From Candidatus Faecalibacterium intestinigallinarum (GTDB lineage: Bacteria > Bacillota > Clostridia > Oscillospirales > Ruminococcaceae): a stretch of DNA of 43,888 nt. The stretch is from contig DXHQ01000095.1 of assembly GCA_019113345.1 (NCBI GenBank), positions 1 through 43,888 on the forward strand, read 5' to 3'. The notes below the pieces were generated by a model. It did not search any database, was not told the origin of the DNA, and worked only from the letters and a program-made list of their open reading frames with translations. Below, in pieces: positions 249-9,131 of the stretch (position 1 is the first letter of the stretch; every line of letters begins with the position of its first letter). A program made the position numbers and the translations under genes.

Positions 249-3314
<3,066 letters not shown>

Positions 3315-3377: not shown

Positions 3378-5996
3378 TTACCGGCGGAGGGATTTATAAA
3401 GCTGAATCAGCACCGTAGGCGTCAGGGCCAGCAGGGCCACCTGCCCCAGCTCCGCCAGACCGAAGGCCGGCGAGACCAGGAACAGGCTCTTGAGGCCGGG
3501 GGTGAAGAGGGCCAGCAGGAGCAGGGCGACGCCTGCCAGGAAGGCCCAGACCGAAGCGGGGTTGCTCCCCAGCCCCAGGCGGAAGAGGCTCTCCCGGCCC
3601 CGGCAGTTGAAGCCGTGGAACAGCCGGGCCAAGGTCAGAGTGGAAAAGGCCATGGTGGAGGCCAGGGCGGCGTCGCCGCCGCGGTAGCCCAGGTAGAAGC
3701 CAGCCATGGTGACCACGGCGATCAGCAGGCCCTGGATTCCGATGGCCGTCAGCAGGCCCCGGGAGAGAATGGACGCCTTGGGGTTCCGGGGCTTGCGGTC
3801 CAGCAGGCCCTGGCGGGCGGGCTCCATGCCGATGGCGATGGCGGGCAGCGAGTCGGTGAGCAGGTTGATAAACAGCAGGTGCACCGGCTGGAAGGGCACC
3901 GGCAGCGCCAGCAGCGAGGCATAGAGCACGCTGAAAATTCCCGCCGCGTTGCCTGAGAGCAGGAACTGGATGGCGTTTTTGATATTTTCATAGACGCTGC
4001 GGCCATTGACCACCGCTTTGACGATGGTGGCGAAATTGTCGTCGGCCAGAATCATGGAGGCGGCGTCCTTGGAGACCTCGGTGCCGGTGATGCCCATGGC
4101 CACGCCGATATCGGCCTGCTTGAGGGCCGGGGCGTCGTTGACGCCGTCGCCGGTCATGGAGACGATCTTTCCCCGCCGCTGCCAGGCGTGGACAATGCGG
4201 ATCTTGTGCTCCGGCGAGACCCGGGCATAGACCGACACCCGCTCCAGCACCGCGTCCAGCTCCCCGTCGGACATGGCGTCCAGCTCCACGCCGGAGAGGG
4301 CCAAGTCGCCGTCGCCGAAGATGCCCAGCTGCCGCGCAATGGCCGAGGCGGTGACCTTGTGGTCGCCGGTAATCATAATGGTGCGGATGCCGCCGCGCTT
4401 GGCGTCGGCCACGGCCTGGATGGCCTCGGGCCGGGGCGGATCGATCATGGAGATCAGGCCGAGGAAGGTGAAGCCCCGTTCGTCCTCCAGGGTCAGGGGG
4501 CGGACTGCCTCCAGAGTCCGGCAGCCGAAGGCCAGCACCCGCAGACCCTGGTTGGAGAGCTGGTCGTTGACGGCCAGAATCTCCGCCCGCCGGGCCTCGG
4601 TCAGCGGTACCGGTCCCTCCCGGGTCATCAGCTTGTCGGACCGGTCCAGCAGCACGTCGATGGCGCCCTTGGTGTAGAGGGTGGGGACGCCCTCCAGGTC
4701 GTGGAGCGTGCTCATCAGCTTGCGGTCGGAGTCGAAGGCCAACTCGCTCAGCCGGGGATGCTGGGCCCGGTAGTCCTCCTCCACCACGCCGAACTGCTCG
4801 CCCACCATCACCAGGGCCACTTCGGTGGGGTCGCCGATGGATTTGCCGGTGGTCTCGTCGTTGGTGGCGTCGCTGTCCAGGAGCGCCGCCTGGAGCATGG
4901 CCCGGTGGACGTCGTTGGCCAGCTCCAAACCGTTGGCCGCCACGAGGCTGCCGTCGGCCCAGAGGTGCTGGGGCGTCATCTTGTTCTGGGTCAGGGTGCC
5001 GGTCTTGTCGGAACAGATCACCGACACCGACCCCAGGCTCTCCACGGCCTTCAGGTCCTTGATGATGGCGTTCTGCCGGGCCATCTTCTTGGTGCCCATG
5101 GCCAGAACGATGGTGACGATGGAGGAGAGGGCCTCGGGAATGGCGGCCACGGCCAAAGCCACGGCGAACATCAGCGAGTCCAGCACGCCCATGCCCGTGC
5201 GGAAGATGGACAGGGCGAAGACCAGGGCGCAGACGGCCAGAATCACCACGGCCAGCTTGGCGCTGAAGCTGTCGAGATTTTGCTGGAGGGGCGTTTTGCG
5301 CTGCTGGGTGGCGTTCATCAGGGCGGCGATCTTGCCCAGCTCCGTATCCATGCCGGTGCCGGTGACCAGCACCGTGGCCCGGCCATAGGTCACCAGGGAG
5401 CCGGAGAAGACCATGTTCTTCTGGTCGCCCAGGGCCACTCGGTCGCCGGAGATGGGCTCGGCGGTCTTCTCCACACCCTCGCTCTCGCCGGTCAGGGAGC
5501 TCTCATTGACCTTGAGGGAGAAATTCTCCAGAATCCGGCCGTCGGCCACCACCATATCGCCGGCCTCCAGCAGCACGATGTCTCCGGGCACCAGCTCCGG
5601 TGAGGAGACCTCGGTCCGGACGCCGCTGCGCAGGACCTTGGCCGTGGGCGCGGACATGGCCTTGAGACTCTCCAGGGATTTCTCGGCCTTGACGTACTGG
5701 ACCGTGCCGAGGACGGCGTTGAGAATCAGCACGGCGAAGATCACCAAGGTGCTCTCCAGATTGTCCGAGAGGGCCGAGATTCCGGCGGCGATGATGAGAA
5801 TTACCACCAACAGGTCCTTGAACTGCTCCAGGAACACCTGGAATACGGTCTTCCGCTTCCCTTCGGAGAGCTTGTTGGGGCCGTACTGCGCCTGACGGCG
5901 GCTTACCTCTCCGGCGGAAAGGCCGGTGGGGGAGGCCTGCTGCCGGTCCAGGGCCTCCTGGACGGACTGGTTGAAATAGGGCGCTGACATGGGCAT
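3378..5996 (-). CDS. P-type cation-translocating ATPase (P2A Ca2+/Mn2+-type, 872 aa)
   Basis: DKTGTLTQNKM phosphorylation motif, AAIPEALSS in TM4, MTGDGVNDAPALKQADIGVAMG hinge; full length. Confidence 0.93.
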   Translation of the reverse strand: MPMSAPYFNQSVQEALDRQQASPTGLSAGEVSRRQAQYGPNKLSEGKRKTVFQVFLEQFKDLLVVILIIAAGISALSDNLESTLVIFAVLILNAVLGTVQYVKAEKSLESLKAMSAPTAKVLRSGVRTEVSSPELVPGDIVLLEAGDMVVADGRILENFSLKVNESSLTGESEGVEKTAEPISGDRVALGDQKNMVFSGSLVTYGRATVLVTGTGMDTELGKIAALMNATQQRKTPLQQNLDSFSAKLAVVILAVCALVFALSIFRTGMGVLDSLMFAVALAVAAIPEALSSIVTIVLAMGTKKMARQNAIIKDLKAVESLGSVSVICSDKTGTLTQNKMTPQHLWADGSLVAANGLELANDVHRAMLQAALLDSDATNDETTGKSIGDPTEVALVMVGEQFGVVEEDYRAQHPRLSELAFDSDRKLMSTLHDLEGVPTLYTKGAIDVLLDRSDKLMTREGPVPLTEARRAEILAVNDQLSNQGLRVLAFGCRTLEAVRPLTLEDERGFTFLGLISMIDPPRPEAIQAVADAKRGGIRTIMITGDHKVTASAIARQLGIFGDGDLALSGVELDAMSDGELDAVLERVSVYARVSPEHKIRIVHAWQRRGKIVSMTGDGVNDAPALKQADIGVAMGITGTEVSKDAASMILADDNFATIVKAVVNGRSVYENIKNAIQFLLSGNAAGIFSVLYASLLALPVPFQPVHLLFINLLTDSLPAIAIGMEPARQGLLDRKPRNPKASILSRGLLTAIGIQGLLIAVVTMAGFYLGYRGGDAALASTMAFSTLTLARLFHGFNCRGRESLFRLGLGSNPASVWAFLAGVALLLLALFTPGLKSLFLVSPAFGLAELGQVALLALTPTVLIQLYKSLRR

Positions 5997-6013
5997 TCAT
6001 CCTTTCCAAAGCA

Positions 6014-6065
6014 AAATAAAAAGGACTTTTCGGCCAAACCGCGCAATACGGCTGGCTGAAAAGTC
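6014..6065 (-). terminator. Intrinsic terminator in the 5' leader of the P-type ATPase gene (expression platform)
   Basis: Minus strand GACTTTTCAGCCA...TGGCCGAAAAGTC (13 bp, one G-U) followed by CCTTTTTATTTTG; lies between promoter and start codon. Confidence 0.85.
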
Positions 6066-6150
6066 TTGTTACCCGATCAGAGGGCGCGTACCGCCAGGTC
6101 CGGAGACCGAGCTGTTGACGGTACAGCTTTGAAACTACTCCCTTTAAAGC
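6058..6150 (-). ncRNA. yybP-ykoY-type manganese riboswitch aptamer
   Basis: Minus strand CTTTAAAGGGAGTAG...GTACCGTCAACAGCTCGGTCTCCGGACCTGGCGGTAC...GTAACAAGACTTTTC; matches the recalled family pattern AAAGGGGAGUAG ... stem with GUCAA internal loop ... AGCAAGACCUUU; its 3' P1 strand is shared with the terminator. Confidence 0.82.
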
Positions 6151-6156
6151 AAAGCT

Positions 6157-6185
6157 ATCGTACCATAGTTTGCCCCGTTCGTCAA
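6157..6185 (-). promoter_or_regulatory. Sigma-A promoter driving the riboswitch/ATPase transcript
   Basis: Minus strand TTGACG - 17 nt - TACGAT immediately upstream of the aptamer. Confidence 0.7.
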
Positions 6186-6309
6186 TGGGTGCTGCGGGAA
6201 AAATGGCGCGGTTGCCGCCGGAACGGCCGGATTGCCGAGACGCGCTACGCACCGAAGCCCGACGACTACCAGGAACTACAGCGGGAAACGGCAGCGAGTG
6301 CGTCTGTAG

Positions 6310-6330
6310 GGGCGGATTAAATATCCGCCC
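6310..6330. repeat. Short palindromic intergenic repeat (gtaggggcggat-N5-atccgccc family)
   Basis: gggcggat-taaat-atccgccc; relatives at 10639-10659 and 10712-10732. Confidence 0.7.
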
Positions 6331-6389
6331 GGGCAGGCCCGCGATTCCCGACGCGCCCGCGCCGAGCACCGTGGGGGGCGGACAGACAA

Positions 6390-6973: not shown

Positions 6974-7537
6974 TCAGAACAGGGACTGGAGCGCTACGCC
7001 AAGGACGCCTGCTCCGCCCATCACATACATCGGGTTGACTTTCCATTTCCGCAGCACCACAAATCCGATCAGGAAAATGGCCACGGACACATAGCTGATT
7101 CCGCTGAGATCAGCCGGCAGCGTCTGGGCTCCGAAGAAAGCCAGCAGCACCAGTCCGATGCCCGCCGACGCGATCATCGAGACCACCGCCGGCCGCAGAC
7201 CGCCCAGCACGCCCTGGACCATGGTGAGATTGCGGAACCGGAAGTAGACGTAGGCCAGCGTCATCACAATGATGCACGAGGGGATCACGCAGCCCACCGT
7301 CGCGATGACGGCGCCGGGGATGCCTGCCACCTGGATGCCTACGAAGGTGGCCGAGTTGATGGCGATGGGACCGGGCGTCATTTCGGCAATGGTCATGATG
7401 TCGGCAAACTGGGTCATGGTCAGCCAGGGATGGAGTTCCACCACCTGGTGCTGGATCAGCGGCATGGCCGCGTAGCCGCCGCCAATGCTGAACAAGCCAA
7501 TTTGGAAAAAGCTCCACAGCAGCTGTAAGTAAATCAT
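6974..7537 (-). CDS. Chromate transporter (CHR family), short subunit
   Basis: MIYLQLLWSFFQIGLFSIGGGYAAMPLIQ...ADIMTIAEMTPGPIAINSATFVG, typical CHR motif; ATGA overlap with upstream gene. Confidence 0.9.
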   Translation of the reverse strand: MIYLQLLWSFFQIGLFSIGGGYAAMPLIQHQVVELHPWLTMTQFADIMTIAEMTPGPIAINSATFVGIQVAGIPGAVIATVGCVIPSCIIVMTLAYVYFRFRNLTMVQGVLGGLRPAVVSMIASAGIGLVLLAFFGAQTLPADLSGISYVSVAIFLIGFVVLRKWKVNPMYVMGGAGVLGVALQSLF

Positions 7538-8106
7538 GCCAATCCCGTTTCCTTTCTCCGGTGACTCTGCCGGATCGTGTCCAGGGCGCCCACGACACCG
7601 CAAATCACGATAATCAGAATAATGTTTACATCAAAGAAGTACGCTGCAATAAACGAAAGCACCATCACCGCCACCGGCAGGACCCGGTGCTGCTGGATCA
7701 CCGTCTTGCCCATGGTGCAGACCACATCGCAGATGACCGCCGCCACGCCGGCCGTCATGCCGGTCATGGCCATGTTGACGATGACATTGTCCCGGAATGC
7801 CGCATAGAACATCGAGATCACCGAGATGATGACCAGCGGCGGCAGCACTGCGCCCAGCACCGTCAGCAGCGCACCCGCCACACCGGCCACATGGTACCCC
7901 ACCAGAATGGATGCGTTCACCGCAATGGCCCCCGGCGAGGACTGGGCAATGGCGGTCAGGTCCAGCATCTCCTGCTCGTCGATCCAATGGAGCTCTTCCA
8001 CAAATTTCTTCCGCATCAGGGGAATGATGATGAAGCCGCCGCCAAAGGTGCAGGCACTGAGCTGTAAGGTGGATAAAAACAGCGTTCTCATTTTTTTCCC
8101 GTTCAA
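7534..8106 (-). CDS. Chromate transporter (CHR family), short subunit
   Basis: TLQLSACTFGGGFIIIPLMRKKFVEELHW...LTAIAQSSPGAIAVNASILVGYHVAG. Confidence 0.9.
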   Translation of the reverse strand: MNGKKMRTLFLSTLQLSACTFGGGFIIIPLMRKKFVEELHWIDEQEMLDLTAIAQSSPGAIAVNASILVGYHVAGVAGALLTVLGAVLPPLVIISVISMFYAAFRDNVIVNMAMTGMTAGVAAVICDVVCTMGKTVIQQHRVLPVAVMVLSFIAAYFFDVNIILIIVICGVVGALDTIRQSHRRKETGLA

Positions 8107-8216: not shown

Positions 8217-9131
8217 ATGACCATTCGCCATCTGAAAATCTTCCTGGCCGTGTGCGACGGCGGCTGCAACACCACCCGGGCGGCGGAGGCGCTGACCATG
8301 GCCCAGCCGGCGGTGAGTCTGGCGCTGAAGGAGCTGGAGCAATACTACGGCGTGGTGCTCTTTGACCGGGTGGGCCGTCATCTGCAGATCACCGCGGCCG
8401 GGAAGCGGCTGTGGGAGTATGCCTCCCATATCACGTCGCTCTTCGACGATATGGAAAAGGGCATGCGCGACTGGGACACCTTCGGTATTCTGCGGGTGGG
8501 GGCCAGTATCACCATCGGCTCTCAGTTTCTGCCCAACTACGTCAAGGCCTTCTACGCCCGCCATCCCGGCACGGAGATCCGGGCCGTCATCGAGCCCTCG
8601 GACCGGCTGGAGGCGCAGATTCTCAGCAGCGACCTGGATCTGGCGCTGATGGAAGGCATGTCCCACAGCCCGTCCCTGGAGTCCGAGGAGTACATGGAGG
8701 ACCATCTGGTGGTGATCTGTCCGGCCCGGGGCCGGTTTGTCCAGGGCCAGACCCTGACCCAAGAGGAATTCCGAAGCCAGAAATTTCTGCTGCGGGAGCC
8801 GGGCAGCGGAACCCGGGAGACCTTCCAGCGGGTCATGGAGGAGGCGGGACTCTCGGTGGAGCCCATCTGGGAGGCCATGAGCACCACGGCCCTGGTCAAC
8901 GCCGTCATCAACGGCCTGGGCATTACGGTCCTGCCCCACCGGATGGTCCTGGGGCCCCTGAGCAAGGGGCTGGTGGTCTCGGTGCGGGTGGAGGGGCTGG
9001 AGTTCCGGCGGAAATATTACATCGTCCGGCACCGGGCCAAATATCTGACCGCCTCCGCCCGGGCCTTCCTGGATCTGTGCCGGAGCTATGAGATGGATTA
9101 CCCCATGCCCCGATACAGCGGCCTATTTTAA
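8217..9131 (+). CDS. LysR family transcriptional regulator
   Basis: N-terminal HTH (MTIRHLKIFLAVCDGGCNTTRAAEALTMAQPAVSLALKELEQYYGVVLFDR) and substrate-binding domain; aaggaggcgag RBS. Confidence 0.93.
   Translation: MTIRHLKIFLAVCDGGCNTTRAAEALTMAQPAVSLALKELEQYYGVVLFDRVGRHLQITAAGKRLWEYASHITSLFDDMEKGMRDWDTFGILRVGASITIGSQFLPNYVKAFYARHPGTEIRAVIEPSDRLEAQILSSDLDLALMEGMSHSPSLESEEYMEDHLVVICPARGRFVQGQTLTQEEFRSQKFLLREPGSGTRETFQRVMEEAGLSVEPIWEAMSTTALVNAVINGLGITVLPHRMVLGPLSKGLVVSVRVEGLEFRRKYYIVRHRAKYLTASARAFLDLCRSYEMDYPMPRYSGLF

Follow-up and report, generated by a model that had tools for sequence, protein, structure and literature searches.

A P2-less leader of the yybP-ykoY (Mn2+) riboswitch type very probably controls a P-type ATPase gene of Candidatus Faecalibacterium intestinigallinarum

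We analysed a stretch of 43,888 nucleotides from Candidatus Faecalibacterium intestinigallinarum (contig DXHQ01000095.1; hereafter the window), which carries on its minus strand a gene for a P2A-type cation ATPase of 872 amino acids (3378–5996). Judging by the Shine-Dalgarno spacing and the starts of its relatives, the ATG at 5990 is the likelier start codon, rather than that at 5996. A beta-galactosidase gene (249–3305, minus strand) lies downstream of the ATPase gene, and genes for a chromate transporter family protein (7534–8106, minus strand) and a LysR-type regulator (8217–9131, plus strand) lie upstream. The protein is a full-length P2 ATPase of the LMCA1/PMR1-like kind with one predicted ion site: its nearest solved structure is the Listeria Ca2+ ATPase LMCA1 (lmo0841), its best NCBIfam model is that of the PMR1-type Ca2+ ATPases, which it matched below the cut-off of that model, and its residues in M4–M6 read PEAL, SGNAAG, and NLLTD. 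The PEAL of M4, the NLLTD of M6, and an alanine in place of the SERCA site-I glutamate fit what we take to be a single Ca/Mn site. Specificity for Mn2+ or Ca2+ cannot be read from the ATPase sequence.

Ahead of the ATPase gene, the minus strand from 6185 to 6013 contains, in this order, a promoter, a folded leader, and a terminator. The promoter (6157–6185) is of the sigma-A type and consists of a −35 element TTGACG (6185–6180), a 17-nt spacer, and an extended −10 element TACGAT (6162–6157) preceded by TG; it agrees with the consensus at 9 of 12 positions, a score that, with the TG, shuffles gave 0.1 times per region. This is the promoter that an earlier, sequence-only reading had claimed for the minus strand, and the strings which that reading had listed downstream of it are likewise all there, between 6145 and 6058: AAAGGGAGTAG at 6145–6135, GTACCGTCAACAGC...CGGTAC at 6124–6088, and AACAAGACTTTTC at 6070–6058. 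In the intrinsic terminator (6013–6065), the 5′ arm GACTTTTC (6065–6058) pairs with GAAAAGTC (6031–6024), which is followed by TTTTTATTTT; the stem spans 6065–6024, and the U-rich tail lies at 6022–6013. The GACTTTT strand does serve as the 5′ arm, as had been proposed, but the stem is longer than the 13 bp first described, with 8 bp followed by about 9 more. The leader together with its terminator folded better than 200 of 200 shuffles (z −3.45). The aptamer alone folded no better than shuffles in single-sequence folding (z −0.72), and we therefore do not regard single-sequence folding as decisive evidence.

The aptamer opens with the switch helix P1.1 (5′ strand, 6142–6150), in which AAAG (6145–6142) pairs with CUUU (6063–6060) and, beyond a UU/UC internal loop, GCU (6150–6148) pairs with AGC (6057–6055). 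The helix covaries in relatives; its inner part here has only 4 bp, and it is weaker than in most of them. The L1 5′ strand GGAGUAG (6141–6135) stands opposite (A/G)AGAC (6067–6063), with AAGA (6067–6064) as the L1 3′ strand, and is invariant or near-invariant in 34 aligned sequences. P1.2 is formed by GUU (6133–6135) and AAC (6070–6068), is closed by C6068 at the head of the aptamer 3′ side (6055–6068), and shows G-C/A-U and U-A/C-G covariation. A short unpaired linker (6126–6132) then occupies the place where the P2 hairpin would be. It is followed by P3a (UGUACCGUC, 6117–6125, with its partner at 6095–6087), which has two-sided changes in seven of nine pairs; by L3 (AACAGCUC, 6109–6116), whose AACA is invariant in 34/34 leaders; by the P3b hairpin GGUC-UCCG-GACC (6097–6108), assigned by folding; and by the P4 hairpin GCCC...GGGU (6071–6085), assigned by covariation. 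A near-identical strain (L032) retains the window leader except for one linker base.

We compared these residues with the Mn2+ site of the Xanthomonas oryzae aptamer through an alignment to its published numbering, made in this analysis. In that structure, the L1 residue A10 touches C44-G66 through an A-minor interaction, G8/G9 are paired with A94/G93, and the L3 sequence is A45 A46 C47 A48, with the N7 of A48 contacting Mn2+ (PMC6754395). G6141, G6140, and A6139 of the window align with G8, G9, and A10 (the Mg site and the A-minor contact), and A6064/G6065 stand opposite L1. The C6117-G6095 pair is followed by A6116 A6115 C6114 A6113, as C44 is by the L3 nucleotides in X. oryzae, and A6113 falls on the invariant adenosine that binds Mn2+ (A48 in X. 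oryzae, A41 in Lactococcus lactis). By this alignment, the window leader retains those nucleotides of L1 and L3 from which the X. oryzae Mn2+ site is built.

The orthologous ATPase genes carry the same leader, with the pattern AAAAGGGAGUAGUUnnAAG...GUCAACAUCACGG...CCUGGC...GCC...GGUAACAAGACUUUU. When we aligned 34 such leaders and tested a structure made up of P1.1, P1.2, P3a, and P4, 94.4% of cells were paired (80.2% in shuffled alignments), two-sided changes occurred in 16 of 23 pairs, and 0/500 shuffles reached any of five measures; sliding the partners against each other lowered pairing to 33–46%. A covariance model (R1) built from the aligned leaders had its sole match in the source genome in the window, with a score of 74 bits, and matched in 93/391 Clostridia genomes, 62/249 genomes of the phylum, and 48/250 genomes of a second class of the phylum. 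Among 82 model matches, in an alignment fitted to the covariance model itself, 94.1% of cells were paired, and 0/500 shuffles reached the covariation score, a stronger result than that of the 34-leader set. The P1, P3, and P4 helices thus covary, as they do in the yybP-ykoY family. That the region is an ordinary promoter and terminator that resemble a riboswitch by chance, with no sensor between them, is extremely improbable: the folding of the aptamer alone and the negative Rfam result described below would agree with it, but it is refuted by the covariation and by the recurrence of the leader before manganese-homeostasis genes in many genera.

A match to the Rfam family RF00080 (yybP-ykoY) had been proposed as the test of the riboswitch reading. 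With cmscan, we found no match to RF00080 in the window at the gathering score, none at E ≤ 10 in the 401-base stretch 5950–6350, and none over the cut-off across the source genome. The sole match to any other Rfam family at E ≤ 10 was that of a microRNA to the terminator hairpin, which we judged spurious. The expected match is therefore absent, and we let the comparative evidence overrule it, attributing the negative result to insensitivity of the Rfam 15 model. The RF00080 cut-off was exceeded in 0/148 Clostridia genomes, the P2-less relatives tested were missed by it, and those relatives visible to it, P2-containing or P2-less, scored only about 19–39 bits, below the cut-off of 45. The alignment printed for the model shows no pairing in the 5′ portion (L1, P1) and an extension into the poly-U, so that the switch helix is not used. 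These results indicate that the majority of clostridial manganese riboswitches escape RF00080 as it stands in Rfam 15, the probable reasons being that the model does not cover leaders without the arm and takes no account of the switch helix. The 45-bit cut-off leaves out nearly all the candidate Mn riboswitches seen here; with an improved model, R1 for example, manganese regulons would come to light in numerous gut bacteria.

In place of the four-way junction of the crystal structures, which includes the P2 hairpin, the short linker gives the window leader a three-way junction. Among 115 leaders, 96 lacked P2 and 19 had it, the linker lengths of the two groups being clearly separated by a gap; because the set was gathered with a P2-less model, the proportion is biased. 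On a FastTree tree of the ATPases, with P2 states of the leaders assigned by script, the state changed at least six times, and the window fell in a mostly P2-less clade. These repeated changes mean that P2 is not a constant feature of the yybP-ykoY family. In the second class of the phylum, 29 of 30 loci were P2-less by the script classification, and we dropped the idea that the form is specific to the lineage of the window or to Clostridia. We likewise gave up regarding a three-way junction as a novelty in yybP-ykoY, since the pneumococcal mgtA riboswitch is reported to have one (PMC9495176). P2-less forms are common in Bacillota, and the missing arm is unusual in comparison with the crystal structures, not with nature. 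It is conceivable, though in our view unlikely, that leaders without P2 make up a functional subtype, in which loss of P2 would loosen L1-L3 docking, or shift the metal threshold or the Mn2+/Ca2+ preference, with lineages toggling P2 to tune the sensor. P2 is repeatedly present before some orthologous genes and absent before others, a natural experiment that bears on which aptamer parts are required. We also note Clostridia ATPase leaders, such as L086 and L104, in which P2 is kept and P4 is seemingly absent, as in a complementary three-way junction; RF00080 did not match these either. Such leaders of orthologous ATPases resemble the window in gene, L1, switch helix, and terminator and differ from it in the two arms and in an L3 of the CGUCA type.

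The 3′ strand of P1.1 is reused by the terminator, which implies that the two exclude each other, as in transcriptional members of the yybP-ykoY family. A strict test, which asked for at least 7 of the 8 bases from GACUUUU to be paired in a terminator-like hairpin with a free energy of at most −12 kcal/mol, followed by a T tract, was passed by 113/115 leaders and by 32/575 with shuffled downstream DNA; it replaced a lenient test that shuffles often passed (417/1150). Free-energy folding of the window leader strongly favours the terminator (−51.1 versus −39.1 kcal/mol), and an enforced P1.1 carries an equilibrium penalty of about 12 kcal/mol, from which it follows that control must be kinetic, by cotranscriptional folding, and assisted by the ligand. 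In the L. lactis analogue, metal binding stabilises P1.1 and leads to readthrough (PMC11087558). By analogy with it, the window leader would be an ON switch for efflux. With little Mn2+, GACUUUUC would join the terminator, and transcription would stop ahead of the gene; with Mn2+ bound between L1 and L3, the two arms would dock and stabilise P1.1, which would hold GACUUUU, so that the terminator could not form and the pump would be made. This allele, with its weak P1.1, may have a raised threshold. The same weakness, together with the missing Rfam match, could instead be taken to mean that the leader, though it shares its ancestry with the riboswitches, no longer binds metal in this genome and acts as a constitutive attenuator; we think this very unlikely, as L1, L3, P1.2, P3a, and P4 are intact, the allele reaches its 74 bits, and strain L032 retains the leader.

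We then consider the genes that such leaders precede, the classes of which were checked with Pfam and NCBIfam. Behind 88 P2-less leaders we found 50 P-type ATPases, 14 TerC proteins (by BLAST), 12 GDT1 proteins, 5 Na/Ca exchangers, 1 MntP, 1 FtsH, and 2 others; three further downstream proteins, unmatched by BLAST (L213, L214, and L224), look TerC-like by eye. TerC/Alx, GDT1, and MntP are tied to manganese or divalent-cation homeostasis by their Pfam and NCBIfam names and in the abstracts of three reports (PMC13274385, PMC10550928, PMC7380456). Manganese-export or homeostasis families (P-type ATPase, TerC, GDT1, MntP, and Na/Ca exchanger) account for most of the downstream genes examined, and the leaders are thus located, as yybP-ykoY riboswitches are, upstream of manganese-homeostasis genes. 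R1 matches were also seen before genes unusual for Mn2+ riboswitches (L180, L152, L190, and L197): those for a carboxyltransferase, a zinc peptidase, FtsH, and a KUP potassium transporter, the leader of the last containing P2.

The composition of this regulon bears on whether the same RNA family might here sense Ca2+, or a mixture of Mn2+ and Ca2+, with the pump acting mainly as a Ca2+ exporter. The pneumococcal mgtA riboswitch is reported to bind Ca2+ more tightly than Mn2+, though Mn2+ activates it better (PMC9495176), and the kinship of the pump with LMCA1, its PEAL and NLLTD residues, and its PMR1-type NCBIfam model point in the same direction. P2-less leaders, however, also precede MntP, TerC, and GDT1 genes, and there is no variation in the L3 adenosine, the N7 of which favours Mn2+; we therefore regard a Ca2+ or mixed signal with mainly Ca2+ export as unlikely.

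Overall, we conclude that the leader at 6151–6013 (minus strand) is very probably a P2-less yybP-ykoY (Mn2+) riboswitch with a three-way junction and a transcriptional ON switch for the ATPase gene at 3378–5996, in which the RNA would bind Mn2+, the switch would turn the gene on, and the pump would export Mn2+ (or Mn2+/Ca2+). Counted against it are the missing RF00080 match, the short P1.1, the energetic advantage of the terminator, the absence of P2 relative to the crystallised four-way junction, and the resemblance of the ATPase metal-site residues to those of a Ca2+ pump. Among the family features compared, only the Rfam score and the P2 arm are lacking, and neither is constant in the family. 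The sequence-only reading of a yybP-ykoY riboswitch is upheld by the covariation, the conserved metal-site nucleotides of L1 and L3, the manganese-homeostasis regulon, and the overlap with the terminator; comparisons of sequence lend strong support to membership of the family, through structure, metal site, platform, and gene context alike. The riboswitch is ordinary in kind, in a form to which present Rfam annotation is blind. A likely annotation of the pump as a Ca2+ ATPase would accordingly be corrected towards putative manganese or Mn/Ca export.

The same ATPase family is riboswitch-linked in Clostridioides difficile, L. lactis, and Streptococcus pneumoniae. With the X. oryzae (6N2V) and L. 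lactis (4Y1I) aptamers, both of RF00080, the window shares GGAGUAG/AAGAC in L1, C-AACA with the invariant adenosine in L3, P3 with L3, and P4, and with L. lactis also a P1.1 that feeds a terminator; it differs from both in its linker and junction and in the lack of an RF00080 match. The S. pneumoniae mgtA riboswitch is reported to have a three-way junction and Mn2+-activated readthrough before a P-type Mn2+/Ca2+ ATPase (PMC9495176), and it is likened to the window by the description of its junction, readthrough, and downstream gene. In C. difficile, an Mn2+ riboswitch (CD2503) is predicted ahead of a YoaB-like P-type ATPase (PMC11477304); this clostridial case is compared by gene context.

Finally, some loci contain more than one copy. 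In Clostridium senegalense, two complete P2-less riboswitch-terminator units stand in tandem, about 270 bases apart, before one ATPase gene (L055:2541–2663 and 2813–2913), and two nearly identical copies, about 410 bases apart, precede a GDT1-like gene (L122:1953–2067 and 1543–1657, minus strand). At L006:571–672, another P2-less riboswitch of the Mn type, equipped with a terminator of its own, lies just upstream of an ATPase leader, before a P-loop kinase-like open reading frame, an unusual gene for this regulon.
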